Source: Crambe crambe (taxonomy: Eukaryota > Porifera > Demospongiae > Poecilosclerida > Crambeidae). From it: a DNA stretch of 64,000 nucleotides. Every line of letters begins with the position of its first letter. The first letter of the stretch is position 1. Below the pieces are notes generated by a model. It saw nothing but the letters and a program-made list of their open reading frames with translations. It made no database searches and was not told the origin of the DNA. The stretch covers positions 5,456,001 to 5,520,000 of the forward strand of contig OZ004591.1 of NCBI GenBank assembly GCA_963924555.1, read 5' to 3'. The position numbers and the translations under genes were made by a program. Below, piece by piece: positions 472 to 39,204 of this stretch.

Positions 472-3400
472 CACTGGAGCAAACTGGTCCATAAGGAGGG
501 AGAACCCTGTCCAGTGGCTAGAGATAGCCATGCTTCTGTCTGTCTTAGTTATGGTGGAGATCACCCAGAACTCCTCATTACTGGTGGAATAGATGACAAT
601 CTCAAGGTTTTAAGTGATATGTGGATACTGAATCTGCAGTCAGGGAGGTGGAGGGAGGTGAGAATTATTTAATGGAGAATGAAAATTAATTGATTGGTGG
701 ACACTAAATCATTAGAATTGGAATCTCCCTCATCTTTTTCTAACTTCCTTGTAGTATTGTTGTTGCTATTTGTGTTGAGGACACTCTCTAGTTGCAATTA
801 CCAAGGGCACCTAGCCAACTCTTTCATATTCCTGTGTCTTCTTCCAATGCTAGATTACAGCATTTGTCCCTATCTCCATTAGGTATAGTACTGTACACAT
901 TATCCACCACATGCTGTGTACCTATCCATCTGCTAATAGGCAGGTGTTGCATGTATGGAGTGTTTCTAATGTTCAGCATCCATTAGAGTAATGTGGAAGA
1001 CCTATGGCTATGATTGAACCTAAGCTCTATTCACAGCTCTAATAGAGTGATACCCTGTAGTTATTAATAGTTACTGACACCTTGTAGTTTGGTGTTAGAG
1101 GTCAAAGTATTTATAAACTGGATGATTATTATTTGCAGTCAACTATCCAATTTATCACAATATGACCTCCTCACTCACTCTAGCTGTATTTGATTAATGA
1201 GTATTATAGAGGGTTTGAGTCATGTTTTGTGGAAACTAGTGATGACGTGGGTACTGAAATAGTAATTGTGAGAGGGATTATCCAATGTTATGTCTCCATG
1301 TGCAGATCAAAGTTCCAAGTCTCCAGTCAAGATCTTCCCACACTGCTGATGTGTTCCATTTCAGTACAAGACTGGCAGAGGTCATTCTATTTGGTGGGAT
1401 TCCTGAGGTGCCAAAGAATGCCAAGTCTGATGCTGACATTCCAATGATAGCCCAGACCACTGTGCTACGATTTGGTGAGTGTGATTTAACTGATGCTAGT
1501 CATACTATACTTCATTCCTCCATAATTATAAACACAATTATTGGCACTGGAGGTCATAATTATTTCCATGTGTTGTGCATACTTACATCTCAAGTGAACT
1601 TTCTTTATGTCGAGATCTCCATCACCTACTGCATTACTCAACATTTCTGTACAGTGGGGACCTCTAAATGTTTGTGTATACTGATCCACAAATACGGGTA
1701 TGAATTGCTGATCCTCAAATTTTTTGTCCCATAAAATATTTGAGAACTATGGTATATTTTAATGGTCTCTTTATTTGGAGACACAGTGACTTTATTAGAG
1801 GTTCTGTACTTGTTGTTTGTTGCACTTGTTAAAAAGTTGTATTTGTGGTTTGTGCATGTGCAAGTCCTCACAAGTCTAGAGTCTGTGATACAGATCATAA
1901 TTATTATGTTTTATCATATCCACCTATGACTATATCTTTTGAAATAATAATGTATTAATTACTTATGTCTTTGGCAATAACAATACGATATTACTGCTAA
2001 TCAGAATGTGTTGATGATCAGTGGACTCTGATTGATGTGTGCAAGTTTCCTGACCTCGGGAGTCCAGAGAGAGTGAAGATGAAGGAAGAACTGAAGCAGC
2101 AGTTTAGTAAGTGTGTGTTGTTGTAATAGCTAGATGGGAGTTGGAGGCATGGTTGTCTGATTATTTATATCCCATGCATGCGTGGGTGAGATCAAAGGGC
2201 TGCGGTGTTCTTAATAAGTCATAATGCCTGACAGGCATTATATATATTATATAAGCGTGGCCACTAATTTGTCACTTTTCCTAGTCTATACTCACCTTAG
2301 CTAGCTATGGATGACCATGGGTGGCCATGGATTATGGATAACCCAAGTCCCGATTAATTGCGCTGCCCGCTGAGGGTGGTGTATAAATCATGAATGATTC
2401 CATTTGATGTAATCACGTAACTATATCATGTAGTAACCCCTTGTTAGGCCTGCAAGTGGTCAGGTGTCCACTTAGATCACTGTGGTTCCCAATTAGAGAC
2501 TTATGGCTGTGGTTGTCATAAGACTATACACAGTTTATACTATTGTCTAAGTCAGTTAGATCACTCCAGTGGTGACTACTCAATACATAAAACCCTGGCA
2601 CCCATACTCATTACATAAGTGATGTATGAGTGATTCAAAATAAAAATAGACTGTTGTACTCAATACCTCCTGTTGATCAGTGATCTATATCTGCCAGCAC
2701 AATTATACTGACACTATAAATGTTAACATTTGCATTGTATGCACTCTTTAATAAAGGAATGAAAATATTTATTCTAAATAAAAAAGAAAAGTAGGGATGG
2801 CTGTGGGTGGTTCAAAAAAAGTGCAGCAACTTCAGTCATAACTCCTTACCCATCACAAACTACGAGCTAACTATTCCTACTTCACTCCCATGACAGGCCA
2901 ATGAAGTAGGAAGTTGTTTGGTGATATTGGTGATGGATAAGGGGTTACTTGACTGAAGTTCACTCTCTTGTTGCTGAACTTTTTTGAACCACACACAGCC
3001 ATCCTTACTTTTCTTTTTTAAATATTTTTTTCCTTTACTTCTTTTTTGATGTAATCCTCTATTATTTTATTATAGGCAACTGATGCTGTGATCCTGTTAG
3101 TTGTAGTTATGTAGTTCATTGGAGGTTTCATCATAATTATTGTATGAGCCAAAATGAATCAGATCTGGAATGATCGAGCTCAAATCTAAACAGTTTAATA
3201 AATTGCCATTGATCTATTTTGTGTATAATTTTTTGAAGGTCTTTACTGGTGTTATGCATGTACCTGATATACTTGTTTGGTATTGCATCAAGACTTCATT
3301 CATAACCAGACTAGTGCCTAGGGGTTACGCTCTGAGCATTGAGACCGACATCAAGAGAGAAAGCTAATGACTAGTCAGTTATGAGGTCAAGGTTCAAGAA

Positions 3401-6400
3401 TCATAAATGACTGCGTTGAAAGCTAACAAGTTGGAAAACGACGTGCTATTTTTTAACACGTCGAGTTAAAGATAAAGGATTATAGCGCAGCATAAAAATT
3501 ATGCCATTTGAATGAACCATTCCTGAAATTAGTTGTTTGATGATGATGATGATGAATGACCAGGTGAAAACAATTTTAGAAGTCACTGTAAAATGATACT
3601 GCTCTGTCTTCTGCTCTTTATACTTGAGTCCTAGCATACTGAAGGTATTCTGTCTTGAAGTTAGGAGTTGCTTACTGTAGGAGAGAAATATTCTGGAGTT
3701 ATGAAAGAAAATACTAAATGTGGCAATCTGTGCCATCCTGACTATCGTACTCTCTGATAGTTCCATTATGTGTGCACTGAGGGTTAGCATTTTTTATTAT
3801 CAGAGAGAGTGGTAGCTCTCTCTATGTAGAGATGACGTGGATGGCTGCATGTGCGCGCCATATATGGACTAATAATCCGGCCTATTAGAGCCTACTACAA
3901 AGTGCAGGCCAAGTTTCAGGGCCAGAAATTTTACCATTTCCAAAAATACGGCAAGCAGGTAAGTTGCTCTATAGTTGTTATTAGACAACCATGTCTCACG
4001 AACCACTCAAGCTACAGCGAGTACCATATAGCACTTAATTCTCAAGGGATTTATATTTCACGAAATTTTCTTTTCATGGAATCTAATTTCACGAACACCA
4101 GCAATAAAGACACACCAGTCTTGGCACTCTAGGCCTGGAACCATAAAGAGAAAAAAAAGACCAGGAACAAGTTCAGAAAATTTTTTTCCGTGAAATGAAA
4201 AGGGATGACCATTGCTCGAAATGTAAGGAAACAAGGGTAGGGATGAAGGGATCAATCTTTGTTCTGTTTATCCAGCCAACAATCCCTACATATACATCTG
4301 ACATATATGTAGAGATTTTTGGCTGGATATGCCGAACAAGATTGATCTCATTTCCATCCTTCATACCTACCCTTGTTTCCTTATTATTTTTTTGAGGAAT
4401 GTTCATCCCTACATTTCATTTTCTCATTTTCATGAATGTTTTTTCCTGATGGATGAGTGATGGAATCCTTCACTTTATATCTGGTCTATTGAATTTAGTG
4501 ATGGAGAAGTACCTGGAGGAAGGCATCCAACATGACTACATTCCATCACAGGTCGCCAACTTCCTGGCTTCAGGTGTTCCAGGCTCAGGGAAAACGTCTC
4601 TCCATTATTCCCTGTTCGATTTACTGCCACCACCACTAAGAATAAGCACCGCATGTATCGAGCAAGCACAGAGAGCAGTGCTGGTAACAAGAAGCGATGA
4701 AGACTCTTCCTCTGAAATCGTGGAGTTCAAGCCAGTTGAAGAGGCCGATTTAAAGCAGATGATCGCAAAGGAGATGACAGAAGAAAGAATAAGTGCAAAA
4801 GAAATAGAGCTATTCTCAGAAATGGAGAAGACACTCAAGGAGAATCCTCCAGTGGAAGATCGTTCAACTCGACCTTTGTTACCATCTTCTCAACCTCAAC
4901 TCTCTCCTCAGCTTGTTTCAAGTCCACAGTCTTCACCCACACCTAATGAAGCCTCTTCACACTTAGGCGTATCACCTCGAGTGAAATTACAAGAAATGGA
5001 CGAGATCATGTATCTCATGCTCCATCCCACCCCAGCCAACATACCACGACTGAGGAACCGCCTGGTGCAATTCATTGACAGTGGTGGACAGCCCAAGCTA
5101 TTGGAGATGTTACCTGCATACCTCCGAAATCTTTCCTCTTTACTGCTCGTCCATCGTCTCTTGGAGACTCTCTGTTCCACACCAATAGCCGAATATTGCG
5201 ACAAAGATGGCAAGCTTTTCGAATTGGGTCACTTCAACCTAACCAATCTGGAAATGTTGGTAAAGTGTGCACAGCTCTCTCGTTACCACCAGTCTCACCT
5301 GGCACTTCCTCACGTGGAATACGATGATTCTCCTCCCGACATAGTGGTGGTGGGCACCTTCAGAGACCAGGAAGGCAAGTGCAAGGAAACCAGGAAGGAG
5401 AAAAATGCCCAACTGGAGGTGGCATTTGAGCAGTTTGGTGAGAGCGTCATGAGGCGATCGAATGGGGAGATCATCTTTGGTGTGGATGCCACTTCTCGTA
5501 GCGATCCTGTAACCTCTGAGCTAAGAGCTGCCTTGAAGAATGGGAAATGCCTGCGCTACAGGTGCCCGAAACAATGGTACCTCCTTGAGTTGGAGTTGAG
5601 GAAGCTGGGGAAGAAAGTCATTTCCAAGGAGGAAGTCTTTTCGATTGCCAGAGCATTGCACATCAAAATCATGGAATCTGTAGAGGCTGCATTGCTGTTT
5701 TGGCACTACATCAACATTATCATGTACTTCCCCAGCATCCTTCCTGAAGTTGTCATATTCCAACCAGATGCTGTGATTGGAATCATCAGCCAACTCTACG
5801 AGCAGCACGTCAAGATCAGTGACACTGCCGAATCCGATGTCACGTGTGAAGAAGATTTGCGTTTTCGAGACCAAGCTGTCTTTAATGAAGATTATCTCTA
5901 CCGCATAAAGAATGATACTGTCTTGTCCGTGGATGAGCTCCTCCTTATTCTTCAGGACAGGAAGACCGTTGCCAAACTTCCTTCCATTGATGAGAGTTCA
6001 TCCCTGTACTTCGTGCCTAGCCTCTTGGAAGAGTTCACTGAAGAGCCAGGTGCTTCTCAAGCTCTGCCTACTTCTCTACATCCAGTAGCTTCGTCTCTGC
6101 TTGTCTCTTTCCCCACTCCTGAGGTTCCTTCGGGTCTCTTTTGCACTTTCATTTCTGATATAGTGTCTTCCAGTGAGTGCAAGATCCCTGACCTTGATAG
6201 TTCCACCAGGTTATATAGGAACTTCATCTCCGTCTCTCTTAGTTTTAGTCCAAGCTCTTTTGGTACTCTCACTCTGTCCAACAATGGAAAGGTTTTCTCC
6301 ATCACTCCTTACTCCCTCTCCTCTTCTTCTTTCTTGCCAAAAGTGAAGAAGCTTGTAGCTAAAGCTCTTGATGCTTCTTGTAGGGTGTTGTCTTACAGAA

Positions 6401-8515
6401 ATCTTCATCAGTTCTCCTTCCAGTGTGAGTGTGGTCAATCTCCTTCTCATATTGCTCACCTTTCACCAGACGAGAAAGTGACCACGTGCTCCATGAAGAC
6501 TGATAAAGGAGTCAGTGATCTAACCAAAAAGCAGCTGATGTGGACAGGTATAGGTTCTCTATTATTATGATCATTTCATTCACTAACCATCTTCTCTTTT
6601 TCCTTAGATCAGAGTATTGGAGTCACTCCAGAACCTCTCAGCAGCTCAGAAACTTCAATTCAAGGTAACAATGTACTGATGAATGTTTAATAAGGACCCC
6701 TCATAATAGCTAGAAGTAGAAGTAACCACCTCACCTACACTGAGTTTAGGATATTTTCATTCAATTAGATTATGATAGAGGAGTGGATGTGATTGGATCG
6801 ACTTCATTTATTTACAAAGGAAAAGCTTTCAGCTTCACTTGGAAGGACCATGGTTTCAAGCTACATTTGCCTGAAAATGCCTTACCTCCCAATGTTTCCG
6901 AGTGTTCTGTCCGAGTCAAGGCTGCTCTCTCTGGCCAGTTCCAGTTTCTGGATGGTGCTGAGCTGGTGAGTGGAATCTACTCCATTCACAGCTCTCACTC
7001 CTTCACTCGTCCAGTGACTGTGGAAATTGAGCACTTCAGCACCACTGACACTCCTGAAGAAGCTGAAGAGCTATTCTTTGTTGTCAATACTGGAGATAAT
7101 CTTCCTCACCAGTTTCATTCTCGAAATGGTGGGATTTTTTCTGTTAAAAACCGATTCGGGGCAATAGAATTGAAACATTTCTGCAAGTATGCCATTGTTA
7201 GAATTGCTGACTCAAAAGAAAGCAAGTCTCAAAATTCTTACAAAAGCTATTTGCTATTGAATGAAGAAAATTTGAATGATTGGGAAGTGTTTTTCAGTAT
7301 CACTCCAGACACAGAACTCCACTCTAATGTGAGACAACTTTTTGGTTGTTATTTTGTTATTGTTCTTACAATTCATTTATGATACACTATTAATAGCATC
7401 TTGTGGAGAAATACCCAAAAATTGCAGTTGAACAACCTATTCTATTCAAGGAAAAGAAAATAGAGTTGAAAATCCCCATAGACGGTCTTAATTTGGATGG
7501 CGGTTGGACTATTCTGCCATTAGCAGCTCCTGTTGTAAGTAAATATGGTGGCTAGCATTCTATTAGCTACTACAAACCATGACTTTTTGGTGAACTAATT
7601 CATGAAAACAATTCATTAAATCCCAATTCAGATTTTCAAGTCTCAGGTTGACAGCTACCAATCTCCTAAGCAGTTTTCACTTTGCAAGTTGAAAGTACGA
7701 TACAGAGGTGTGGCACTCACTGGATCTGACCTGACGCACAGGATTGAGTTTCTTGGTGCTGAAGAACCTTACACTTTTGTAATGCTATGCATTTCATCAC
7801 GAGGTATATAGTAACTTACTACCTCTCTAACTATCATGTGGATATATGATAATTTTGCAGTGCCTCCTCCAGTACTATCTTCATCATCTGCAGCTGGAAA
7901 TGAACCAGGGACTTCCGCAGCAACCGATGTAAGTCACTTAATACCCACTCCATAACTGATATTAATGAGAATTGTAGGGGAGAGCCAGCACTAGTCTACA
8001 AGTCCCCCCTTCAAAAAGACCGAAGACTTGTGAGTAGCTATGCAATAGTGGTGTATACAAGCCATCATTGATTACTTAAAACCTTTTGATTTTTTACAGA
8101 TCAAAATATACTGGCAACTGTGGATACTGCAGACCTTGGTAAATTTGGTTTTAACTGACCAACCATGCACATACTTAGCATGTTATAATTGGTCCTTAAT
8201 ATGTTCTTTTTCCTTTCTTTCCAAGATATTGATGATATTGGGGACGTATTTGATGAAGTGGAGGACTTGTCATCGAAATGGAACTTGCTAGCAATCAAAC
8301 TGCGTCTGAAAAATCATACAATTGAAAACATCCAGCAGAAGTACAATGATGGCTTGAGCAGCCTGAGCGAAACTCTGAAAGAATGGTTGAAGTTGAACTA
8401 CAATCACCAAAAATATGGACGACCAAGCTGGCAGAGGTTAGCAGAGGCAGTGCGGAGTCTTGATTATGGAATTTTTGAGGAGATAGCCAGGAATCATGGA
8501 GGTGAGATTGTGTAG
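472..8515 (+). CDS. Gene A: Kelch / Ras-like NTPase-COR / ZU5-UPA / Death protein, 5' exons off the left edge
   Basis: Exons: 472-657, 1306-1474, 2005-2106, 4499-6547, 6608-6664, 6769-7328, 7397-7534, 7632-7803, 7861-7928, 7978-8029, 8100-8138, 8226-8515. All junctions are GT-AG, the phases agree, and the sum is 1,293 codons plus stop. By comparison with gene B, only the first two Kelch exons are missing. The 472 and 1306 exons carry two Kelch blades (LLITGG, VILFGG). The 2,049-bp exon holds a P-loop (GVPGSGKT), a switch-II-like DSGGQP, a VGTFRD motif and a COR-like segment. Exons 6769-7803 are ZU5 plus UPA, with HFS and HFC motifs. The last exon is a Death domain containing YGRPSWQRLAEAVRSLDYG. 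Inferred role: intracellular receptor feeding a death-fold pathway. Oddity: the stop is a TAG where gene B and the Death fragments read CAG, so the C-terminus is several residues shorter. The NTPase exon is almost identical to that of gene B. Confidence 0.87.
2778..3021. mobile_element. Foldback MITE in the intron before the NTPase exon (gene A)
   Basis: A long imperfect inverted repeat. The left arm reads AAAAGTAGGGATGGCTGTG and runs on through GGTTCAAAAAAAG. The right arm is its complement (CTTTTTTGAACC, then CACAGCCATCCTTACTTTT). There is no coding capacity. The same element sits in the same intron of gene B at 24428-24671, so it predates the duplication. Confidence 0.75.
4225..4382. mobile_element. 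Foldback MITE just upstream of the NTPase exon (gene A)
   Basis: An inverted repeat spanning about 158 bp. AAGGAAACAAGGGTAGG at the left matches CCTACCCTTGTTTCCTT at the right, with inner arms ATCAATCTT / AAGATTGAT and ATCCAGCCAA / TTGGCTGGAT. A somewhat longer copy lies at the same place in gene B (26510-26688). Confidence 0.75.
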
Positions 8516-11116
8516 TTTCTCAATAGGAATTAACAGATTATCTGATTTACAGCTCAAAATTTGTAGCTGGACAGTGGATAAGGTCTGCTCAAGCTCAGTG
8601 AACATACACTTGACACTCACCATGCATTCACACTTTGTATCATCACAATGACATTCCATTATGTAAAAGCACATTCCATTGATATATTTAAAAAAAAAAT
8701 TTTTTTTTTGGTAACAGTGATTATAAAATTTTCACAAATTGATGACACTGACAGTAAATCAATGGTTTCTACAATGGTTCATGATGACTGTTTTGGTCTG
8801 CAGTGAATGAGTGTGACTTTCAAGAGACCACAAGAATGTCTTCACCACATTACATCATAGTTACCTGCAATGGACAATAATTTTGCAGGATGAATACTGA
8901 ACAGCTAGATACCAGCTTCCCCTATCAATAGTATAGTGAGAGTTAGGGAGATAGTAATTGTACACTTTATAGTCAAACCTCCTAGCAACAAGCTTCCAAA
9001 CAATTACTAAAGTGGAATGGATCGAAATTCCACTACACAGTTATTTTTTAATCCCCAACAGTTATTTTTCAACCCACAGTTATTTCTTAACCCCCAAAGG
9101 ATAAAGTGCCTGTGACTCCATCAACATGAAGCCTACCATCCACTAGTATCTGGGTACATGAATACTTTGTATCTGGGATACAGTACACGTCCATTTGGAT
9201 ACTTTTGTATCTATGCTAGTTAAAATGGCTGAGACTGCTGCATGTGGAATTGCTATTGCTATTGCTTTAAGAAAAGAGAGGCAAAGAGACATCATCAAAT
9301 ATGGGTCAAGTAATGGCTCATAAAAAGGGAAGAGCTAGGTCCATATAATCAATTTAATCAAAAAGCTAGAAATAGTAGTTAGGATCAAAGAGTGTTCACC
9401 AGGACACAAAGTTTAGAAAAATCAGTCCTGATGAAGGTGTCTATACCTTTGTAACTATAGCCCAGCTGACAGCTGCTAGTGAATTTCAATCTTGCAACAT
9501 GTATACAAGGAAAACAGTACTTTCTATAATAATACATGTGTACAAGGGGGGAAATCAGGGCTGGATACAGGGGTGGGATTGAGGGCACTCCTTTTTTGTT
9601 AAACTTTAAAATGGTGCACTTAAATGCAATTTGATCCCATGCCTACTTGCTTAGCCATGTCTATTTTTCTTTTTGACAATGTGAAGTAGTATAATTAGAG
9701 AGAACATGTATGCACATGGGCTAACTTAACTAGGAACTAATGTGGTTACTATGTCATCTAAGGCTACAGTCAAAAGAAACAGTCTATGTATACTTGATAC
9801 ATCCATTTTGGGTTTCACTTTCAAGGTCACACATTAGATTACTCAGTGTGATTTCCTTAACAATCCCACCTGTGACTTTGCAGGTGTCACTTTAAGATAT
9901 CTTAAAGAGCACTTTGGCTTACATTTTCAAGGTCACACATTACATAACTCAAAGAATAGCTAACTGTGATTTCAAAAAGTCATCACTACAACATATGCAT
10001 AAGGACCAGATAATGATAAGGTAACTCCCTTATAATGGGTAAAGGGTCAGCACCTAATACTAGAGCCATATGGTGGGTAAAGGGTCATCACCACAAAATA
10101 CACATGTACGTATGCACGTACATAGTATAGTTGTGGCAATTTGAGACTGATTTTTGACTATCTGATTTATGTATCATAGTCATGGGATGAGTTCTCCACA
10201 ACCTGTGGTGGATAATAAGATTGCACAGGCCTTGCTTCACACATGAAGGGTCTTTAAGTGGTAAGTGAGAGGAGAAATAAGGCTCTGATATACAATTCAA
10301 TCAAGATGGGGTTCTGAGTGTGAAGCACGAGTTACTATACCATACATGGCTTTCCCTTAGTGACCAATACTATCAGATCAAGTCTGACAAGTGCATGGAG
10401 TTATAGCACATGCTCTAAACGGTAACACCATCATAACATGTACAATCACTAGCAATGGATGATGTTGGAAGATTTCAGGACCAATTTCCTCTCTATGAAG
10501 TCACAAGGATGAAAGGAGAGGGAGATTGAGAGTTTTGGTTAAATACGCATTATAAAAATAAAAGGAGGAGAGGAGAGGAGAGATTATTAGGGTATTGGTT
10601 AATATTAAACACCATTCCATTATTAGGGACAAACTTCAGTGGTATTATAAAGGAGGTTCACAAAGATGGTTCACATTTTACAGAGTGTTCTTTATGGATG
10701 ACTCAACCATACAGCTATAGGGTACATATATCACTGACTGACCAAAGGGGGTTCACATGCAACCTGTGAACAATACTAGTTACATCACTGAACTTGTAAG
10801 GGATTGGTTGGTGGTTTAGGGAAACAGTGGATCACCAGAAGAGACACAATAGGATGGATAATTCACTCGTAATAAATATCAACTCACCAAGAGAATATGC
10901 AGTTATTGTCTCTACCACTTCTGCTTCATGAGATCTGGATATTGACATCTTGAGGTACAGCTGGTTCACACACTGCACACTAACCTTCATATAAAGAGAA
11001 AGTCATCATAAAGAGACAAAGAAACTACACACTCAAGTGTTGCATACTACAGTGGGACCTCTCCATGAAGTGCACTCACTGACTATGATAAATCTTTCTC
11101 TCATGAATGCACTGGG
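8516..11116. other. Spacer 1, left part: Death-gene 3' flank and dispersed repeats
   Basis: No gene is seen. 8516-8960 is the 3' flank of gene A and recurs after every Death exon (30869, 38776, 57355). 9000-10090 is AT-rich and largely unique to this copy, with repeats of the phrase 'aaggtcacacatta'. 10090-11040 recurs at about 31930-32640, 42520-43560 and 58700-59660. Open frames here are short, not conserved between copies, and not supported by splice sites. Confidence 0.6.
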
Positions 11117-12020
11117 ACAACCCCCAGTGACACTCTCATAGTGGGTAAAGGGAATCCACAGTGACGAACAACCCCTAGTGACACTCTCATAGTGGGTAAA
11201 GGGAATCCACAGTGGCGAACAACCCCCAGTGACACTCTCATAGTGGGTAAAGGGAATCCACAGTAACGAACAACCCCCAGTGACACTCTCATAGTGGGAA
11301 AAGAGAATCCACAGTGACGAACAACCCCTAGTGACACTCTCATAGTGGGTAAAGGGAATCCACAGTGACAAACAACCCCCAGTGACACTCTCATAGTGGG
11401 TAAAGGGAATCCACAGTGACGAACAACCCCCAGTGACACTCTCATAGTGGGTAAAGGGAATCCACAGTAACGAACAACCCCCAGTGACACTCTCATAGTG
11501 GGAAAAGGGAATCCACAGTGACGAACAACCCCTAGTGACACCCTCATAGTAGGTAAAGGGAATCCACAGTGACAAACAACCCCCAGTGACACTCTCATAG
11601 TGGGTAAAGGGAATCCACAGTGACAAACAACCCCCAGTGACACTCTCATAGTGGGTAAAGGGAATCCACAGTGACGAACAACCCCCAGTGACACTCTCAT
11701 AGTGGGTAAAGGGAATCCACAGTGACGAACAACCCCCAGTGACACTCTCATAGTGGGTAAAGGGAATCCACAGTGACGAACAACCCCCAGTGACACTCTC
11801 ATAGTGGGTAAAGGGAATCCACAGTGACGAACAACCCCCAGTGACACTCTCATAGTGGGTAAAGGGAATCCACAGTGACGAACAACCCCAGTGACACTCT
11901 CATAGTGGGTAAAGGGAATCCACAGTGACGAACAACCCCCAGTGACACTCTCATAGTGGGTAAAGGGAATCCACAGTAATGAACAACCCCCAGTGACACT
12001 CTCATAGTGGGTAAAGGGAA
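11117..12020. repeat. 51-bp minisatellite, about 18 copies
   Basis: Tandem repeat built on CAGTGACACTCTCATAGTGG, then GTAAAGGGAATCCACAGTGA and CGAACAACCC. The period is 51 bp, with scattered single-base variants and one unit missing a C near 11886. Because 51 is a multiple of three, frames stay open for hundreds of codons on the minus strand (17-residue repeats such as MRVSLGVV). This is a by-product of the period and not evidence for a protein. The array ends exactly where the transposon at 12048 is inserted. The core GTGGGTAAAGGG is the motif dispersed through all the spacers. Confidence 0.93.
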
Positions 12021-12047
12021 ATAACTACACAAAAGGGTCACTAATAA

Positions 12048-19294: not shown

Positions 19295-22200
19295 ATGTCA
19301 TATGAGCCTCTTCCTCGCTGGGGTCACTTCTCTTCCCTCGTAGAAGGAAAACTCTTTATTTTTGGAGGATTCGTTGAAGACTTCCATAACCATAATGAAC
19401 TGAAAACAACAATTAACTCTTACAATTCTTTTAATGAAACTTGGAGTTTGTTTCATGCAGGTGGATCTCCTCCACTTGGAATATATAATGGTGCAAGTAC
19501 ATCTCTCTCCAATAACTTTTATTGTTTTGGAGGATCCAATGGTACGTATTATCAGGGTTCCTTACACAAATGGGATTCCTCCACAATGTCATGGAATCAA
19601 CTAAAAGAACATGACAACAAAGGACCGATAAAGAAAATCGCTTGTGCGATGATCAGTCATAATGAAGAAATCCTAATGTTTGGTGGGTATGGGACCCCGA
19701 CTGGTCCCATCCAGCCAGGATCTCAGTTTATCGTTGATACGAGTGGTATTGATGGTGATGGATGGACCAACGAGTTGCACAGCTTTAACCTCCAAGAAGG
19801 TGAGGGAGAATGTTAGGGGTGTAGCTAGTAGGTTAATGAGGTGTGTGCACACCACTCTACTTCCATGACTTTAAATTTACCCAATAAATGTGGGAGTGGT
19901 TATGTCATAGCTACTGTACAGAGCACAGAATGAAAGTTGGTTGTTGGTCAAATGCTGATCAATTCCATCATTAATTTTAGCATGACAGTAACTTAATGAA
20001 TGGTCAAGTTCATGGGGCAAAAGCAAACATGAATGACCTAGGAAACTGGTATCATAACAGGTCAGACCAGTTTTTGATCTGACACTTGACTTACCATAAT
20101 GTGAGTGATATTTTGTGCTCTGACTGTCTACATATCACACGTACAAGCAGAGAAAGAGAAACTGAATGTTTCTTTATGCTTGAAGCAATGTTATAGCAGA
20201 TGTTATGGGAACTGTTGAAACAGGGTCTAAAGTGTAAAACTATAAAAGGTTTATGGTCTCACACTCTCTTTTCACCACCAGCCCTTATTCATGTATCTCA
20301 AAACAAGTCTGTTGCTGCCAAGAATAATGTAACCATTACTGATATGATCACTATGGGGAATAAGTCATAGGGTGACACTGGAACATGAGCAATTATAGTA
20401 CATACATCACATGGAGTAGTCAAACAAGAAAAGCATTGATTAGCACATGCCATATAGTAACATAATAATGTGAATCATCCCAAAGTGCATTTCATGAGAT
20501 TTCAGATTTATATTTATGGTTCAGTGTTGAGTGTGACAACTATACTATATGGAATTTGTGCAGGGCTCGTAATAACAGTCTGGACGTCATGTGACATTTT
20601 CTTGTCATTTTCATTTGTCCTGTCACTTTTTCTGACTAAAATTTCTATTATAACAACTGTTATTAGACAATCATATCCAGACAATGATGGAGTGTTATTG
20701 CATGCTCCATTTGTGTAGATGTCTATAGTATCAAAATGAACACTTTTCCCCATTTAATGTTATTGACTGAGTTGGAGATGACAGCATGGAGTTTCCATGT
20801 ACATGAACTACATGAAATAATGTAACTCTCATAATTACTTGTTTGTATACAGAACTTTGAGACTATACTTTATACAGTCACATGTAACTACACTGACATG
20901 CAACACATAATACACATCATTATGTACAGACTTACATTCCCATCACCTTCACAGGATTACCAATCTTTAATCATCTGACTCTTACTTCCCCCCAACTCCC
21001 TCAGGGACGTGGTCCTCCCCCACTGTCACTGGAACAAGACCTCCTCCATGTTCTCACTTCACACTAACAAAGATAAACGAGAATACAGCTGTGATGTTTG
21101 GAGGGGTCCTACCTGGACGTAAGAGAACCAATGATGTGTACATCCTTGACCTGACTAAAATGGTGAGATGCCAACATTAATTAATAGGGGTGAGTCTGAG
21201 AGACCCCCACACTAGTGAGTCAGTTGAGAGATTTCTACTATATAATTATTTATATATTTATATGTTTCGTACGTTCTAACATTAATGGTTTTTCTCTGTG
21301 ACGATCATCTGGTAACATTACATCACATTACATTGCACATGCACAAACTTTTACAACATAATTCCAAACACTTCAGACTGCACTGATCACAGATAACATC
21401 CTACACAGTAAAAAACAAACAAACCAAAAAACATAATAAACACATGCATAAAATTAAATGTCTATCACACCCAGAGCACATGATTTTTTTCTCATGGAAC
21501 CTTTGGTTCACATATCAAATTGAAGCAATCCACATCGATCTTGATCATCAGACTCACCCCAGAATACACTGCATTTCTCTAGTATATTACACTAATGAAG
21601 TAGGTATTTCAGTATGCTCTGGCAGATGTGATGCACTGACCATTGTAACTAGTTCAGTAAGTCCCATAGCTATAGTGCCACCACACTCAGATAAGACAAG
21701 GTGAATATAATATCCAAGAATGGGAGGTCAAGTATATAAGTGAATGGAAGATTATATGGCCACAACTATTATCATTATTAATTTTACATGTTTAGCAAAT
21801 GATAGAAAAATTAATGTGTCCATAACATACTTAATAATTTACTTGGGACATGAATTTTATAATAGTAATGATAACTGTGCTTAGTAGGAGGTGAATGATC
21901 ATGTTCTGCTGATTCTTTTACCACATGAATGATACTGAACCCTCCACCTCCTACTCTATTTCCATGTTATGAGGCTCTCATCACTCATGCATAATCATCA
22001 GACATTTTGGGGAGTTTGTTCATTTATTTCAGCGTTTAAAATTGATCCCTGATGTATAGTGATCGTAATTGTAACCTTTTTCATTTCCAGCACTGGAGCA
22101 AACTGGTCCATAAGGAAGGAGAACCCTGTCCAGTGGCTAGAAATTGTCATGCTTCTGTCTGCCTTGGTTATGGTGGAGATCACCCAGAACTCCTCATCAC

Positions 22201-25200
22201 TGGTGGACTAGATGACAATCTCAAGGTTTTAAGTGACATGTGGATACTGAATCTGCAGTCAGGGAGGTGGAGGGAGGTGAGTATTATTTAATGGAGATTG
22301 AAAATTAATTGCACTAAAATTGGAATCTCCCTCATCCTTTTCTAACTTCCTTGTAGTATTATTGTTGCTATTTGTGTTGAGGACACTCTCTAGTTGCAAT
22401 TACCAAGGGCACCTAGCCAACTCTTTCATTTTCCTGTGTGGAGTCAGAGTAAAAAGTGTGCATTGTTTAGTTGTAGCTACAAGAAAGTGATCTTCTTCCA
22501 ATGCTAGATTACAGCATTTGTCCCTATCTCCATTAGGTATAGTACTGTACACATTATCCACCACATGCTGTGTACCTATCCATCTGCTAATAGGCAGGTG
22601 CTGCATGTATGGAGTGTTTCTAATGTTCAGCATCCATTAGAGTAATGTGGAAGACCTATGGCTATGATTGAACTAAGCTCTATTCACAGCTCTAATAGAG
22701 TGATACCCTGTAGTTATTAATAGTTACTGACACCTTGTAGTTTGGTGTTAGAGGTCAAAGTATTTATAAACTGGATGATTATTATTTGCAGTCAACTATC
22801 CAATTTATCACAATATGACCTCCTCACTCACTCTAGCTGTATTTGATTAATGAGGGTTTGAGTCATGTTTTGAGGAAACTAGTGATGACGTGGGTACTGA
22901 AATAGTAATTGTGAGGGGGATTATCCAATGTTATGTCTCTATGTGCAGATCAAAGTTCCAAGTCTCCAGTCAAGATCTTCCCTCACTGCTGATGTGTTCC
23001 ATTTCAGTGCAAAACTGGCAGAGGTCATTCTATTTGGTGGGATTCCTGAGTGGCCAAAGAATGTCAAGTCTGGTGCTGACCTTCCAATGATAGCCCAGAC
23101 CACTGTGCTACGATTTGGTGAGTGTGATTTAACTGATGCTAGTCATACTATACTTCATTCCTCCATAATTATAAACACAATTATTGGTACTGGAGGTCAT
23201 AATTATTTCCATGTGTTGTGCATACTTACATCTCAAGTGAACTTTCTTTATGTCCAGTGGGGACCTCTAAATGTTTGTGTATACTGATCCACAAATATGG
23301 GTATGAATTGCTCATCCTCAAATGTTTTCTCCCATAAACTATTTGAGATGTATGGTATATTTTAATGGTCTCTTTATTTGGAGACACAGTGACTTTATTA
23401 GAGGTTCTGTACTTGTTGTTTGTTGCACTTGTTAAAAAGTCGTATTTGTGGTTTGTGCATGTGCAAGTCCTCACAAGTCTAGAGTCTGTGATACAGATCA
23501 TAATTATTATGTTTTATTATATCCACCTATGACTATATCTTTTGAAATAATAATGTATTAATTACTTATGTCTTTGGCAATAACAATACGATATTACTGC
23601 TAATCAGAATGTGTTGATGATGAGTGGACTCTGATTGACATGTGCAAGTTTCCTGACCTCGGGAGTCCAGAGAGAGTGAAGATGAAGGAAGAACTGAAGC
23701 AGCAGTTTAGTAAGTGTGTGTTGTTGTAATAGCTAGATGGGAGTAAGAGGCATGGTTGTCTGATTATTTATATCCCATGCATGCGTGGGTGAGATCAAAG
23801 GGTCGTGGTGTTCTTTATAAGTCGTAATACCTGACGGGCATTATTAGTCATATATTGCCCTTAGTTTATTGAAACAATAATTATGTATGTGAACAAGAAA
23901 GTGTGGCCACTAAAGTGTCACTTTTCCTAGTCTATACTCACCTTAGCTAGCTATGGGTTCCCATGGGTTTTATTGATTATGAATATAACCCAAGTCCTGA
24001 TTGTGCAGCCCTCTGAGGGTGGTTTATAATCCTTAGACGATAACATGAATGATTCCGATAATCAGGTAACTATATCATGTAGTAACCCCTTGCTAGGCCT
24101 GCAAGTGGTCAGGTGTCCACTTAGATCACTGTGGTTCCCAATTAGAGACTTATGGCTGTAGTTGTCATAAGACTATACACAGTTTACACTATTGTCTAAG
24201 TCAGTTAGATCACTCCAGTGGTGACTACTCAATACATAAAACCCTGGCACCCATACTCCATTACATAAGTGATGTATGAGTGATTCAAAATAAAAATAGA
24301 CTGTTGTACTCAATACCTCCTGTTGATCAGTGATCTATATCTGCCAGCACAATTATACTGACACTATAAATGTTAACATTTGCATTGTATGCACTCTTTA
24401 ATGAAGGAATGAAAATATTTATTCTAAATAAAAAAGAAAAGTAGGGATGGCTGTGGGTGGTTCAAAAAAAGTGCAGCAACTTCAGTCATAACTCCTTACC
24501 CATCACAAACTACGAGCTAACTATTCCTACTTCACTCCCATGACAGGCCAATGAAGTAGGAAGTTGTTTGGTGATATTGGTGATGGATAAAGGGTTACTT
24601 GACTGAAGTTCACTCTCTTGTTGCTGAACTTTTTTGAACCACACACAGCCATCCTTACTTTTCTTTTTTAAATATTTTTTTCCTTTACTTCTTTTTTGAT
24701 GTAATCCTCTATTATTTTATTATAGGCAACTGATGCTGTGATCCTGTTAGTTGTAGTTATGTAGTTCATTGGAGGTTTCATCATAATTATTGTATGAGCT
24801 GAAATGAATCAGATCTGGAATGATCGAGCTCAAATCTAAACAGTTTAATAAAATTGCCATTGACCTATTTTGTGTATAATTTCTTAAAGGTCTTTACTGG
24901 TGTTATGCATGTACCTGATATACTTGTTTGGTATTGCATCAAGACTTCATTCATAACCAGACTAGTGCCTAGGGGTTACGCTCTGAGCATTGAGACCAAC
25001 ATCAAGAGAGAAAGCTAATGACAGATTCACTAATCAGTTATGAGGTCAAGGTTCAAGAATCACAAATGTCTGCCATGTTGGAAAATTACGTGCTTTATTT
25101 AAACACGTCGAGTTAAAGGTAAAGGATTATAGCGCAGTCAACTTTGTGTAGTGTGGTATGAAAATTAAGGCATTTAAATGAACCATTTCTGAAATTAGTT

Positions 25201-28200
25201 GTTTGATGATGACGACCAGATGAAAACGCAATTTTAGAAGTCGATACTGCTTGTATATTGAATATACTGAGCGCTTGCATATTGAAGGTATTCTGTCTTA
25301 AAGTTAGGAGTTGCTGACTGTAGGAGGGAAGTATCTGGAGTTATGAAAGAAAATACTAAGTATAAGTCAAATGGGGTAATCTGTGCCATCCCTACGTAGA
25401 GAGTACTATTGTACTCTCTGATAGTGCCAAATGTGTGTGCTGAGGGTTAGCACTTTAGTGTTTATTATTATCAGAGAGAGTGGTAGTTCTCTCTATGTAG
25501 GGATGATGTGGATGGCAGCACGTGCCGTATATAGACTAATACAAAAGTGAAATTTTAGTTCACCCACTTGGACCTACTGTGAATGATAATCCAGCCTATT
25601 AGAGCCTACATACTACAAAGTACAGGCCAAGTTTCAGGACCAGGGATCTTACCATTTCGCAGGTAAGTCGCTCTATAGTTGTTATTAGACTACCATATCT
25701 CACGAACCACTCAAGCTACAGCAAGTACTGTATAGCACTTAATTCACGAGGGATTAAAATATTTTCTTTTCGTAGAATTTAATTTCACGAATGCCAGCAA
25801 TAAAGCCACACCATCAGTCAGGCTTTGCATTCTAGGTGTGGCCTGCCCTACCCTGCCCTCTTCCCTGCTATTCATCATCTAACAAGCTTGTAACTACTAG
25901 TATAGGCCTAGCTAGCTAGGGGATCAAGCTCTGACAGAGGTCCACTTAGGTTGAGATGTGTTAAACTTGCTTACAAAATGGAGTGGCATCACAAATCACT
26001 AACTAAATTAGCAACTAGTTTGCTAGCTAGGTGATCGTGTCAGAGTAGCTAGATAAATCAGGCTACGCCTCTCCACAGTCACATCACCCTAGTTAACTGG
26101 CCACACCTTCTCATACTGCAGATCTTTTTTTGAAGATTGTAATTTCATGAATGTACTCTCCTTTAATGTGCTCTCTAGTGTCATCTCCTTTTTGTTTGAC
26201 TTTTTAGAGGATCATCAATTTGGAGTGGATTTATCGCATACTTAATTTTCGAGGGATATATATTTCACGAATTTTGTGAAGCAAGTATATAGCTCAAGCC
26301 TTGACTCACTGATAAATAATCATTAGGCTGCTATGTTATTGGAGAACAAGAAACATTTATCCCTGCGTATACATAGAAGAATGAACTCTTACATTCTTGC
26401 ATTTATGCACACGAACATAAAACCATAAAAAGAGAAAAAAGACCAGGAACAAGTTAAGAAAAAAAAAATTTCCGTGAAATGAAAAGGGATGACCATTGCT
26501 CGAAAAAGTAAGGAAACAAAGGTAGGGATGAATCATGAAAATGGGATCAATCTTTATTTGCCAACAATCCCTACATATACATCCATTACTGCACTATAAT
26601 AATCTGATGTATATGTAGAGATTTTTGGCTGGATATACAGAACAAAGATTGATCCCATTTTCATTCTTCATACCTACCCTTGTTTCCTATTTTTTGAGCA
26701 ATGTCATTTTTTTCCTCATTTTCACGAATGTTTTTTCCTGATGGATGAGTGATGGAATCCTTCACTTTATGTCTGGTCTATTGAATTTAGTTATGGAGAA
26801 GTACCTGGAGGAAGGCATCCAACATGACTACATTCCATCACAGGTCGCCAACTTCCTGGCTTCAGGTGTTCCAGGCTCAGGGAAAACGTCTCTCCATTAT
26901 TCCCTGTTCGATTTACCGCCACCACCACTAAGAATCAGCACAGCATGTATCGAGCAAGCACAGAGGGCTGTGCTGGTAACAAGAAGCGGTGAAGACTCTT
27001 CCTCTGAAATCGTGGAGTTCAAGCCAGTCGAAGAAGCCGATTTGAAGCAGATGATTGCAAAGGAGATGACAGAAGAAAGAATAAGCGCAAAAGAAAAAGA
27101 AGTGTTCTCAGCAATGGAGAAGACACTCAAGGAGAATCCTCCAGTGGAAGATCGTTCAACTCGACCTTTGTTACCATCTTCTCAACCTCAGCTCTCTCCT
27201 CAGCTTGTTTCAAGTCCTCAGTCTTCACCCACACCTAATGAAGCCTCTTCACACTTAGTCATATCACCTCGAGTGAAATTACAAGAAATAGACGAGATCA
27301 TGTATCTCATGCTCCATCCCACCCCAGCCAACATTCCACGACTGAGGAACCGCCTGGTGCAATTCATTGACAGTGGTGGACAGCCCAAGCTATTGGAGAT
27401 GTTACCTGCATACCTCCGAAATCTTTCCTCTTTACTGCTTGTCCATCGTCTCTTGGAGACTCTCTGTTCCACACCAATGGCCGAATATTGTGACAAAGAT
27501 GGCAAGCTTTTCGAATTGGGTCACTTCAACCTAACCAATCTGGAAATGTTGGTCAAGTGTGCACAGCTCTCTCGTTATCACCAGTCTCACCTGGCACTTC
27601 CTCACGTGGAGTACGATGATTCTCCTCCCGACATAGTGGTGGTGGGCACCTTCAGAGACCAGGAAGGCAAGTGCAAGGAGACCAGGAAGGAGAAAAATGC
27701 CCAACTGGAGGTGGCATTTGAGCAGTTTGGTGAGAGCGTCATGAGGCGATCGAATGGGGAGATCATCTTCGGTGTGGATGCCACTTCTCGTAGCGATCCT
27801 GTAACCTCTGAGCTAAGAGCTGCCTTGAAGAATGGGAAATGCCTACGCTACAGGTGCCCGAAACAATGGTACCTCCTCGAGTTGGAGCTGAGGAAGCTGG
27901 GGAAGAAAGTCATTCCCAAAGAGGAAGTCTTTTCGATTGCCAGAGCATTACACATCAAAATCATGGAATCTGTAGAGGCTGCATTGCTGTTTTGGCACTA
28001 CATCAACATTATCATGTACTTCCCCAGCATCCTTCCTGAAGTCGTCATATTCCAACCAGATGCTGTGATTGGAATCATCAGCCAACTCTACGAGCAGCAC
28101 GTCAAGATCAGTGACGCTGCCGAATCCGCTATCACATGTGAAGAAGACTTGCGTTTTCGAGACCAAGCTGTCTTTAATGAAGATTATCTCTACCGCATAA

Positions 28201-30868
28201 AGAATGATACCGTCTTGTCCGTGGATGAGCTCCTCCTTATTCTTCAGGACAGGAAGACCATTGCCAAACTTCCTTCCTTTGATGAGAGTTCATCCCTGTA
28301 CTTCGTGCCTAGCCTCTTGGAAGAGTTCACTGAAGAGCCAGGTGCTTCTCAATCTCTGCCTACTCCTCAACTTCCAGTAGCTTCATCTCTGCTGGTCTCT
28401 TTCCCCACTCCTGAGGTTCCTTCAGGTCTCTTTTGCACTTTCATTTCTGATATAGTGTCTTCCAGTGAGTGCAAAGTCCCTGACCTTGATAGTTCCACCA
28501 GGTTATATAGGAACTTGATCTCCATCACTCTTAGTTTTAGTCCAAGCTCTTTTGGTACTCTCACTCTGTCCAACACTGGAAAGGTTTTCTCCATCACTCC
28601 TTACTCCCTCTCCTCTTCTTCTTTCTTGTCAAAAGTGAAGAAGCTTGTAGCTAAAGCTCTTGATGCTTCTTGTAGGGTGTTGTCTTACAGAAAGCTTCAC
28701 CAGTTCTCCTTCCAGTGTGAGTGTGGACAATCTCCTTCTCATATTGCTCACCTTTCACCAGACGAGAAAGTGACCACATGCTCCATGAAGGCTGATAAAG
28801 GAGTCAGTGATCTAACCAAAAAGCAGCTGATGTGGACAGGTATAGGTTCTCAATTATTATGATTTTTTCATTCACTAACCACCTCCTCTTTTTGCTTAGA
28901 TCAGAGTATTGGAGTCACTCCTGAACCTCTCAGGAGCTCAGAAACTTCAATTCAAGGTAACAATTTACTGATGAATGTTTAATAAGGACCCCTCATTATA
29001 GCTAAAAGTAGAAGTAACCACCTCACCTACAATGAGTTTAGGATATTTTCATTCAATTAGATTATGATAGAGGAGTGGATGTGATTGGATCAACTTCTTT
29101 CGTTTACAAAGGAAAAGCTTTCAGCTTCACTTGGAAGGACCATGGTTTCAAGCTCCACTTACCTGAGAAAGCCTTACCTCCCGATATCAACGAGTGTTCT
29201 GTTCGAGTCAGGGCAGCTCTCTCTGGCCAGTTCCAGTTTCCTGATGGTGCTGAGCTGGTGAGTGGAATCTACTCCGTTCGCAGCTCTCACTCCTTCACTC
29301 GGCCAGTGACTGTTGAAATTGAGCATTTCAGCACCACTGACACCCTCGAAGAAGCTGAAGAGCTATCCTTTGTTGTCAGCACTGGAGACCAACTGCCCTC
29401 TCAATTCCGCCCACTTAAGAATGGGATCTTCCCCATTTACAGTCGACATGGAGCAATTGAAGTACCACATTTTTGCAAGTATGGTGTCACAAGGACAAGA
29501 AAGTCAAAACGGTCTGCAAGACGTGAGCAAGTGAATCAGGAGCAGAGTTATAACCCTGAGTCTCGCAATTTATACAAAGGCTACCTTCTATTCAATGAGG
29601 CAAATCAGAGCCATGATTGGGAAGTCATGTTCAGTATTACTCCAGACACAGAAATCCACTCTAAAGTGAGTTAGCTATAACTTTCAAAATGGATACATGT
29701 ACTAATACTCTTTTTTTTTTTTTTAATTGTAGAATCTTCTTGAGAAATACCCCATGAACACAGTGATTGAGCAACCTGTTGTGTTCAAAGAGAACAAGAT
29801 ACAGTTGAAGATTCCTAAAGAAGGCCTCAATTTGGAAGGAGGTTGGAAGATTCAGCCACTGGCAGCACCCATTGTTAGTTATATCCAGTCACTGCAGTGT
29901 AACTATTCGGATTTCAAAGTTATTCACTACCATAATGTACTCTGCAGATTCTCAAGTCACATGTTGACACTTATCGACTTCATAAGCAGTTTTCACTTTG
30001 CAAGTTGAAAGTACGATACAGAGGTGTGGCATCCACAGGATCTGACCTGACATACAGCATCGACCTTCTCGGTGCTGAAGAACCTTACACTTATGTTGTG
30101 TTGTGCATTTCATCTCATGGTAAACTCCTGTTAGTTCACCATTAGCTATAGCTATCATCTGTATTGTAATGCAGTTTCTCCTTCGGTACAATCCCCATCA
30201 TCACCTGGAAACAAACCATGGGCTTCCCCAGCAGCATCAGCAACCAATGTAAGTTAATTAAAGACCTAATGATACCACACTTAATTCATAACTGACAACA
30301 TTGTGGTCATTGTAGGTGAGAGCCAGCACAAGTCCACAAGTTCCCTCTCCAGGAAAGACTTGTGAGTATTATTATGCAGTTAACATTACAATGTCAATGG
30401 TGGTGAATACCAGCTAATTGTAAAAATTTACTCTTCTTCTTCTTAACAGATCAGACCATACTTGCAACAGTAGATGATACAGTCCTTGGTGAGTTTAGTT
30501 TGCTAGCTATACACAAATATCTTGAGTTGTTGTTACTGAGCTCGTCCTTTCTTTTTCAAGGTATTGATGATATTGGGGACGTATTTGATGAAGTGGAGGA
30601 CTTGTCATCAAAATGGAACTTGCTAGCAATCAAACTGCGTCTGAAGAATCATACAATTGAAAACATCCAGCAGAAGTACAGTGATGGCTTGAGCAGCCTT
30701 AGCGAAGCTCTGAAAGAATGGTTGAAGTTGAACTACAATCACCAAAAATATGGACGACCAAGCTGGCGGAGGTTAGCAGAGGCAGTGCGGAGTCTTGATT
30801 ATGGACTCTTTGAGGAGATAGCCAGAAAACATGGAGGTGAGATTATGCAGGTTCTCAAAGGGAATTAA
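19295..30868 (+). CDS. Gene B: complete Kelch / Ras-like NTPase-COR / ZU5-UPA / Death protein
   Basis: Exons: 19295-19799, 21005-21162, 22091-22276, 22949-23117, 23608-23709, 26791-28839, 28900-28956, 29061-29665, 29733-29873, 29948-30119, 30175-30248, 30316-30361, 30450-30488, 30561-30868. All are GT-AG, phases match, 1,536 codons. Residues 1-373: six Kelch blades (LFIFGG, FYCFGG, ILMFGG, AVMFGG, LLITGG, VILFGG). 374-1056: P-loop GVPGSGKT near 399-406, DSGGQP near 567, VGTFRD near 658, COR-like WHYINIIMYFP near 775; no NACHT signature seen. About 1082-1216: ZU5 with HFS (1164-1166) and HFC (1212-1214). About 1230-1385: UPA-like. 1435-1536: Death domain. No signal peptide or membrane segment, so cytoplasmic. 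The start ATG is the first in frame with the Kelch motif and aligns with gene C, where the context is GCCATGG. Function (receptor-like adaptor for cell death or immunity) is inferred from architecture. Confidence 0.9.
24428..24671. mobile_element. Foldback MITE in the intron before the NTPase exon (gene B)
   Basis: Orthologous to 2778-3021, with the same arms (AGTAGGGATGGCTGTG / CACAGCCATCCTTACT). The rest of this 3-kb intron (23710-26790) shows no extra exon that fits the phase-1 junction. It also contains 'ttttcgagggatatatatttcacgaa' fragments of another dispersed repeat near 26240. Confidence 0.72.
26510..26688. mobile_element. Foldback MITE upstream of the NTPase exon (gene B)
   Basis: Same family and position as 4225-4382. 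Arms AAGGAAACAAAGGTAGG and CCTACCCTTGTTTCCT. The centre is longer by a segment that includes ATTACTGCACTATAATAATC. Confidence 0.72.
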
Positions 30869-38679: not shown

Positions 38680-38775
38680 AACAATCATGAGAGATATGGA
38701 AGACCAAGCTGGCAGAGGTTAGCAGAGGCAGTGCGGAGTCTTGATTATGGACTCTTTGAGGAGATGAGGTGAGAT
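38680..38775 (+). pseudogene. Orphan Death-domain 3' fragment fused to SUCLA2 copy B
   Basis: Reads NNHERYGRPSWQRLAEAVRS, then LDYGLFEE, the C-terminal half of the Death domain of genes A-C, starting abruptly after the SUCLA2 intron sequence GCTGTAAAGGAATG. The N-terminal half and all upstream exons are absent. After EE a 14-base-scale deletion relative to genes A and B removes IARNHG. The usual 3' flank follows. It shares the junction word AACAATCATGAGAGATATGG with 63829-63848, so the two chimeras have a common origin. Confidence 0.8.
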
Positions 38776-39204
38776 TGTGCAGCTTCTCAATAGGAATTAA
38801 CAGATTATCTGATTTTGTAGCTCAAAATTTGTAGCTGGACAGTGGATAAGGTCTGCTCAAGCTCAGTGAACATACACTTGACACTCACCATGCATTCACA
38901 CTTTGTATCATCACAATGACATTCCATTATGTAAAAGCACATTAAATTTTTGTTTGAAAAAATTTTGTGATTATAAAATTTTCATGAATTGATGACACTG
39001 ACAGTAAGTCAATGGTTTCTACAATGGGTCATGTCTGCAGTGAATGAGTGTGACTTTCAAGAGACCACAAGAATGTCTTCACCACATTACATCATAGTTA
39101 CCTGCAATTGACAATAATTTTGCAGGATGAATACTGAACAGCTAGATACCAGCTTCCCCTATCAATAGTATAGTGAGAGTTAGGGAGATAGTAACTGTAC
39201 ACTT

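Follow-up and report, generated by a model that had tools for sequence, protein, structure and literature searches.

Intracellular receptors of animals tend to be equated with NACHT-LRR proteins. PIDD1 has the architecture LRR-ZU5-ZU5-UPA-Death, and both PIDD and NLRP1 self-cleave at HF^S at the end of the ZU5 unit. ZU5/FIIND autoproteolysis has been discussed for such receptors and TRADD-N is fused to UPA-Zu5 in some animals (PMC8195603), while NACHT-Zu5 combinations are mentioned among animal NLRs (PMC12909245). In four brown algae, a 2024 study found at most 47 ROCO genes per genome, numbers said to exceed those published until then for other organisms (PMC11378527). Here we describe gene B, found in a window of 64,000 nucleotides of the sponge Crambe crambe (assembly GCA_963924555.1, contig OZ004591.1, positions 5,456,001 to 5,520,000, forward strand). 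Its domain order, Kelch, Roc-COR-type GTPase, ZU5-like, UPA-like and Death, was confirmed at the level of the sequence. We read gene B, with a probability of roughly 0.6, as a large, probably intracellular receptor belonging to a tandem, fast-diversifying sponge family and working by the mechanism proposed below. Such a family is the best explanation because a variable propeller, a conserved switch, a Death output, tandem growth and exon exchange are found together.

Rebuilding gene B (19295-30868) from the DNA exactly reproduced the model of the earlier note: 14 exons, all introns GT-AG, consistent phases and 1,536 codons plus one terminal stop. Exons 1-5 (19295-19799, 21005-21162, 22091-22276, 22949-23117 and 23608-23709; plus strand, as are all gene B features) encode a six-bladed Kelch propeller, assigned from the splice model, Pfam Kelch and KLHDC2 structures. 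The Pfam match was 8e-45, six blade-type GG doublets were seen by eye in the translation, in agreement with the six blades claimed before, and the closest solved structure was KLHDC2 (E 4e-18). Exon 6 (26791-28839; 2,049 nt), a single symmetric exon of phase 1-1, covers the Roc-COR-like GTPase and the segment following it. The splice model next places a short phase 1-1 linker exon, also present in gene A (exon 7, 28900-28956), and then the ZU5-type domain with its HFC motif (exon 8, 29061-29665). Exons 9-10 (29733-29873, 29948-30119) form a UPA-like region, exons 11-13 (30175-30248, 30316-30361, 30450-30488) a Ser/Pro-rich linker, and exon 14 (30561-30868) encodes the Death domain and the stop. 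The end of exon 5 and the starts of exons 6, 7, 8, 11, 13 and 14 are all in phase 1. In a paralogue of the 82% class (cluster 2), exons 9-13 measure 141, 172, 74, 46 and 39 nt, identical to gene B, with GT-AG borders, and the spliced product is open through to the Death stop.

We searched the genome (143,139,886 bases, 119 contigs) for further copies and found at least 25 of exon 6 on C14, the chromosome bearing the window. Together with genes A and C in the window itself, they bear out the tandem family that had been proposed. Ten copies were 94-100% identical and fifteen 81-83%; one carried a stop and one was matched over 435 of 440 residues. Kelch exon 1 lay 6.4-12.8 kb upstream on the same strand in 25/25 copies, although at 6.35 Mb it consisted of two partial pieces only (35-38% identity). 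Exon 5 was likewise found on the same strand, 0.4-4.3 kb upstream, in all 25 (inside the fixed search windows for 23, just beyond them for the other two), and a ZU5 exon stood 2.3-2.5 kb downstream on the same strand in every copy. A Death exon followed in at least 21 of the 25 within 12 kb and in at least 19 within 6 kb; misses are not absences, because the best 150 of 466 Death candidates were scored. Starting from the other end, exon 6 was found downstream of 22 of the 24 Kelch exon 1 loci examined, the exceptions being gene C and locus L047. The domain order given in the earlier note was right, as judged by the Pfam search and by an exon order that recurs with the 25 exon-6 copies.

Between copies, Kelch exon 1 changed faster than the GTPase exon. 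By parsimony, its nonsynonymous/synonymous ratio was 0.64 for the 11 sequences of cluster 1 and 1.04 for the 13 sequences of cluster 2, compared to 0.23 (9 sequences) and 0.18 (13 sequences) for the trimmed GTPase exon. Pairwise nonsynonymous divergence (dN) exceeded synonymous divergence (dS) in 7/36 and 29/78 pairs for exon 1 and in 0/36 and 0/78 for the GTPase exon, whose frames in this comparison ran into the intron. The changes in exon 1 clustered at two places per blade: the residue that follows GG, and the x of R-x-G or the place corresponding to it (RWGH, IYNGA, KKIAC). The literature names sixteen KEAP1 residues that contact ligands or belong to the pocket (PMC12266349, PMC6891428). 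When these were mapped, with the KEAP1-to-sponge register set by motif and not by structure, 10 of the 16 fell directly after GG (Y334, R380, F478, Y525, Y572) or after R (S363, N414, S508, S555, S602). The other six lay elsewhere (N382, R415, R483, Q530, A556, F577); of these, three stand slightly past GG, by a few residues, like site 84 of the sponge exon. Six KEAP1-type rim positions carried on average 6.1 and 5.0 nonsynonymous changes in clusters 1 and 2, versus 0.69 and 0.79 at other positions.

The two clusters shared several of their most changed sites. Four of the top six coincided (65, 81, 84 and 115; p 8e-6), as did four of the top ten (p 0.0014) and seven of the top fourteen (p 2e-5), and across the 161 sites aligned the counts per site were correlated (Spearman 0.40, p 2e-7). 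Genes A, B and C further differed from one another at rim-type places in exons 3-4 (VAR-DS/NC/AG-H and TGG-I/L/G). That the propeller senses had been put forward earlier by inference; it now gains comparative support from the changes on the KEAP1-type ligand face and from the apparent exchange of sensor exons, with sensing as its presumed role. Because the pocket rim varies between copies, each copy probably has its own ligand specificity. Otherwise very similar copies with Kelch exons that differ much at the rim make this specificity directly testable by domain swaps.

Kelch exon 1 and the GTPase exon had separate histories. Within clusters their relatedness was uncorrelated (Spearman 0.01 over 36 pairs and -0.08 over 78 pairs, using the first 1,980 and 1,150 columns of the GTPase alignments). 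Two copies 330 kb apart were identical over the 1.5 kb of upstream sequence compared, through exon 1 and about 0.85 kb into intron 1, and diverged beyond; their GTPase exons were 96.7% identical. The median proportion of nonsynonymous differences (pN) in exon 1 was 0.081 and 0.078 in clusters 1 and 2, versus a median intron 1 divergence of 0.025 and 0.018, and exon 1 pN was the higher value in 44/55 and 56/78 pairs (means in cluster 1, 0.081 versus 0.064). The GTPase exon showed the opposite, with a mean pN of 0.019 and 0.020 versus an intron 5 divergence of 0.152 and 0.322. The sensor exons thus seem to be exchanged among copies.

Whole modules have also been lost. Gene C (50860-57354, plus strand), delineated by blastn and a splice model, is a Kelch-linker-Death gene of nine exons and 523 codons. 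It consists of exons 1-5 followed by linker exons and the Death exon, with GT-AG borders, consistent phases and no internal stop. Exons 6-10 of gene B, encoding the GTPase, ZU5 and UPA-like parts, are gone as one block, and the frame survives because the exon borders listed above all share phase 1. Past exon 5, its sequence matches the start of gene B intron 5 at 91% identity over the first 626 bases. As gene C is in frame and open over nine exons, the Kelch and Death exons are parts of a single gene.

The product of exon 6 can be read as a divergent Roc-COR GTPase. Gene B was aligned with five paralogues (26-81% identical), and the P-loop, D-[ST]-GGQP and GT-x-x-D were invariant in the six rows, which also had the COR-like segments in common; the P-loop, DSGGQP and COR-like segment pointed out earlier in gene B are thus all kept. 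Pfam Roc was matched by 3/6 rows (best 6e-4) and COR-A by 2/6 (best 2.6e-5), in line with the Ras-like NTPase and COR-like segment of the earlier note, while gene B itself lacks a Roc match and stays below threshold for COR-A. The six-row profile gave its best alignment, a weak one, to Rab6 at D-x-x-GQ (E 0.048). Judged from these patterns, Roco membership of the family is probable and not formally proven. A NACHT identity of the NTPase was considered and rejected: gene B has no NACHT match and carries the Ras-type D-x-x-GQ instead. None of the at least 103 NACHT places listed (of 232 candidates) lay within clusters 1 or 2, and no Pfam LRR match was found in gene B. The label of an NLR-like sensor therefore stands by analogy only, and we would call the family NLR-like in logic, not an NLR. 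Elsewhere in the genome, dense NACHT arrays, mostly of open frames above 1,000 codons, were seen at C9:7.06-7.53 Mb and C21:1.29-1.64 Mb, a conventional repertoire beside the Roc-COR one.

In the C-terminal half, the Death domain of exon 14 passed the Pfam cut-off (6.8e-5, 23.4 bits, cut-off 22.6), while a cluster 2 copy (21.1 bits) and the relative L077 (17.1 bits) stayed under it. Exon 8 scored 70.4 bits to C12:2142301-2142732, itself a ZU5 match at 34.1 bits, and is ZU5-like by homology through this intermediate. Exons 9-10 can be called UPA-like by position and pattern, helped by the equal exon lengths in cluster 2. Of the ZU5-UPA-Death tail announced by the earlier note, the Death domain was recovered directly and ZU5 through intermediates only, and UPA had no profile match. 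Between one and three ZU5 exons accompany each exon-6 copy. Those of the main type end in HFC in 9/9 rows reaching the site; a second type, in many copies the next exon downstream of exon 6, has KSF[GR]KF in 14/14. Among relatives, L004 and L077 have HFS and L001 has HFC. We take the HFC of exon 8 to stand at the place of the PIDD/NLRP1 HF^S autoproteolysis site. Searched against the PDB, the C-terminal 1,163 residues of gene B returned FADD at E 0.85 only, and a ZU5-UPA profile found nothing useful there.

Several results weigh against the receptor reading or against parts of it. In the profile searches suggested with the earlier model (Kelch, Roc/COR, ZU5, UPA and Death), gene B matched Kelch and Death; its COR-A match (Pfam 2.6e-5, 24.6 bits) fell under the curated cut-off of 35.3 and its ZU5 match (0.016, 15.9 bits) under that of 21, and neither Roc nor UPA was matched by Pfam. 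A UPA profile scan of the genome was silent, as were its controls. AAA_16 also weakly matched 3/6 exon-6 rows (best 0.0048), and structure predictions run without an alignment gave no usable fold for exon 6 or exon 8 (predicted local distance difference test scores, pLDDT, of 36 and 32). One copy, 5609901, showed only a ZU5 type that lacks the HF-C site and had no Death match. Kelch genes with no GTPase match also exist, namely gene C, L047 and, among the matches listed, other C14 clusters such as those at 4.1-4.7 and 5.0-5.1 Mb, which have Kelch and ZU5 exons; the switch is therefore not needed in every member.

The same applies to some of the figures on diversification. The rim pattern was noticed first and tested afterwards, and rim position 26 was unchanged in cluster 2. 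No single Kelch site reached p<0.1 among the 14 most changed sites per set, and only pooled and replicated patterns were therefore used. A common fold constraint alone can make two clusters vary at similar sites and may account for part of the per-site correlation between them. Regarding exchange, mean exon 1 pN and mean intron 1 divergence were nearly equal in cluster 2 (0.071 versus 0.070), exon 1 pN exceeded the divergence of upstream DNA in 34/55 and 27/78 pairs only, and the upstream DNA of cluster 2 was more divergent (0.167) than exon 1. The proportion of synonymous differences (pS) in exon 1 was also above the median intron 1 divergence, and the pattern is therefore partly due to flank conversion or to divergent exons that were imported.

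On the receptor reading, a ligand would be bound by the Kelch propeller via its pocket rim. Binding would act on the Roc-COR GTPase and, through a change in nucleotide state or dimerisation, relieve the C-terminal half of inhibition. The ZU5-UPA-like unit, possibly after a cut at HF-C, would then free the Death domain, which could recruit Death-domain adaptors and so lead to cell death or inflammatory-type signalling, with immunity or self-recognition as the presumed role. Tandem duplication and exchange of Kelch exons would widen the repertoire, and so would modules gained or lost as a whole at phase-1 introns (as in the Kelch-Death gene C).

We weighed this reading against three others. If an adjoining Kelch gene and a Roc-COR-ZU5-Death gene had simply been duplicated together, no joint protein would be made; the intron of about 3 kb between exons 5 and 6 and an in-frame ATG near the exon 6 start in each of the 25 copies would suit such a pair. 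However, exon 5 ends at a splice donor without any stop, and the acceptor AG of exon 6 is kept in 25/25 copies, whereas the position of the nearest ATG differs between clusters. Moreover, in gene C this donor of exon 5 leads, in frame, into the linker exons and the Death exon, and Kelch exons lie upstream of every exon-6 copy listed on C14 (25/25). A pair of separate genes is accordingly very improbable. We give little more credit to a housekeeping scaffold or degradation adaptor with a KLHDC2-like propeller, spread by neutral tandem duplication. KLHDC2 is indeed the closest solved propeller, and recent duplicates and a tract identical in two copies are evident, but neutral duplication alone would not focus changes on the ligand rim in two clusters while the GTPase ratio stays at about 0.2.

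The third alternative puts allorecognition, or self-recognition within colonies, in the place of defence: the propellers would read self/non-self labels and the Death domain would trigger rejection or cell death at contact zones. A tandem array, a variable rim and exon exchange fit it equally well, and cell death is known in the allo-incompatibility of colonial animals, sponges included (PMC8195603). Defence receptors bear the same signature, nothing found here contradicts the allorecognition alternative, and the two roles cannot be told apart on present sequence data; we regard it as unlikely but worth keeping in mind beside a receptor for defence.

Relatives of the GTPase exon were also sought across the genome. 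The exon 6 search gave at least 97 places (best 96 of 424 candidates scored), or 95 after merging three overlapping pieces of one broken copy, and the COR-A search at least 150 (best 150 of 339 candidates scored), 149 of them over the curated cut-off. A stop inside the match was found at 4 of the 97 exon 6 places and at none of the COR-A places listed. The two lists did not overlap, the closest pair compared being 3.6 kb apart (C14 places and C1 places above 8 Mb were judged by eye), and there are therefore at least 244 distinct Roc-COR-type exons in the genome, some of them matched only partly; the number counts exons and not proven genes. In the upstream 7 kb of GTPase exons on C11, C15, C1 and C10 no Kelch exon was seen by eye, and none of the Kelch_4 matches listed lay near them. 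Eight open frames of Death-like appearance stand upstream of these exons, and Pfam Death matched one over cut-off, two below it and five not at all. Some relatives thus seem to carry Death-like exons in place of Kelch. It is conceivable, though we would not bet on it, that all these loci form a second sponge receptor system of NLR scale, built around Roc-COR and comprising hundreds of loci. In such a system, phase-1 modules would be exchanged or dropped and Kelch rim exons traded to give a germline combinatorial repertoire, read out by PIDD-like autoproteolysis and Death assembly.

Some of these relatives have further features. Open frames at L070:3434-3769 and L072:763-1155, upstream of Death-like frames, contain DVELNPGP and DVETNPGP, 2A-like peptides by their motif; they could be receptor leader peptides or retrotransposon remnants. 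At L070:820-2674, a frame that weakly matches fibronectin III (fn3 0.0016, below cut-off) and a hydrophobic stretch resembling a membrane segment lie 5' of Death-like frames and of a GTPase exon, and may represent a separate gene or a membrane-bound member. In the array at C3:7.48-7.83 Mb a ZU5 exon precedes the COR exon by about 2.6-3 kb, the reverse of gene B, which reflects either a reversed order or two alternating genes. On C14 itself, at 4.12-4.66 Mb, at least 27 more Kelch exon 1 matches (37-44%) and three ZU5 exons (80-81%) were found, with no GTPase match listed.

Within the window, gene A (472-8533, plus strand; 5' part outside the window) was traced by blastn with gene B exons and by translation. 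It retains exons 3 (472-657), 4 (1306-1474), 5 (2005-2106), 6 (about 4499-6547), 7 (6608-6664) and 8 (from 6769), parts of 9-12, and exon 14 (about 8227-8533), whose stop comes six codons earlier than in gene B; exon 13 gave no blastn match. Pieces of the 3' end of a Death exon were found at 38681-38800 and 63829-63962 (82% and 90% to gene B), and blastn matched no further gene B exon beside them. On the minus strand, 11033-12024 holds long overlapping repetitive open frames with GGCSSLWIPFTHYESVT-type repeats, apparently a tandem DNA repeat.

Compared to known systems, gene B shares with PIDD1 the ZU5-type unit or units, a UPA-like region, a C-terminal Death domain and HF-C/HF-S at the end of the last ZU5. 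PIDD1 differs in having LRRs where gene B has Kelch and Roc-COR, and its site is Ser, whereas the gene B subfamily has Cys, with cleavage putative. In DAPK1 (kinase-Ank-Roc-COR-Death) Roc-COR is likewise followed by Death (PMC6320773), but gene B has no kinase or ankyrin repeats, carries Kelch in front and has COR separated from Death by ZU5/UPA-like exons. Propeller and Roc-COR also occur in one protein in those Roco proteins that bear Kelch or WD40; they have LRR and kinase, and ZU5 or Death are not described for them in the part of PMC6320773 available. Animal NLRs, sponge NACHT genes included, resemble the family in their large repertoire and sensor-switch-Death logic, whereas in gene B the switch is Roc-COR-like, not NACHT, and the sensor is Kelch, not LRR, and N-terminal (PMC12909245). 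The TRADD-N/Death-like expansions of Amphimedon, too, form a family in a sponge, with hundreds of members whose Death-like domains have shuffled partners, but TRADD-N-based; the available text of PMC8195603 has no Kelch, and Roco only in a reference. In two other sponges, Kelch-motif and Death-domain genes were changed by microbial patterns (PMC6208332), but their architecture is not given there and we did not use them.

Our search of the open-access literature recognised no description of a Kelch-Roc-COR-ZU5-Death family. Up to forty domain combinations are mentioned for animal ROCOs (PMC11378527), and the order of gene B may therefore be among them. The LRR-ROCO proteins of brown algae likewise join a Roc(-COR) GTPase to a repeat sensor in an enlarged family, with exon shuffling and diversifying selection on the sensor, and are proposed immune receptors; unlike gene B, they have an LRR sensor, no ZU5 or Death, and belong to an unrelated lineage (PMC11378527). 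Their at most 47 genes per genome stand against at least 244 Roc-COR-type exons here, a rough comparison because the methods differ. If the receptor reading is true, a family as large as this, with a Roc-COR switch, a Kelch sensor of variable KEAP1-type rim and a Death output like that of PIDD, would mean that animals solved the problem answered by NACHT-LRR proteins a second time and independently, parallel to the ROCO receptors of brown algae, and would link LRRK2/DAPK-type GTPases to receptor signalling.

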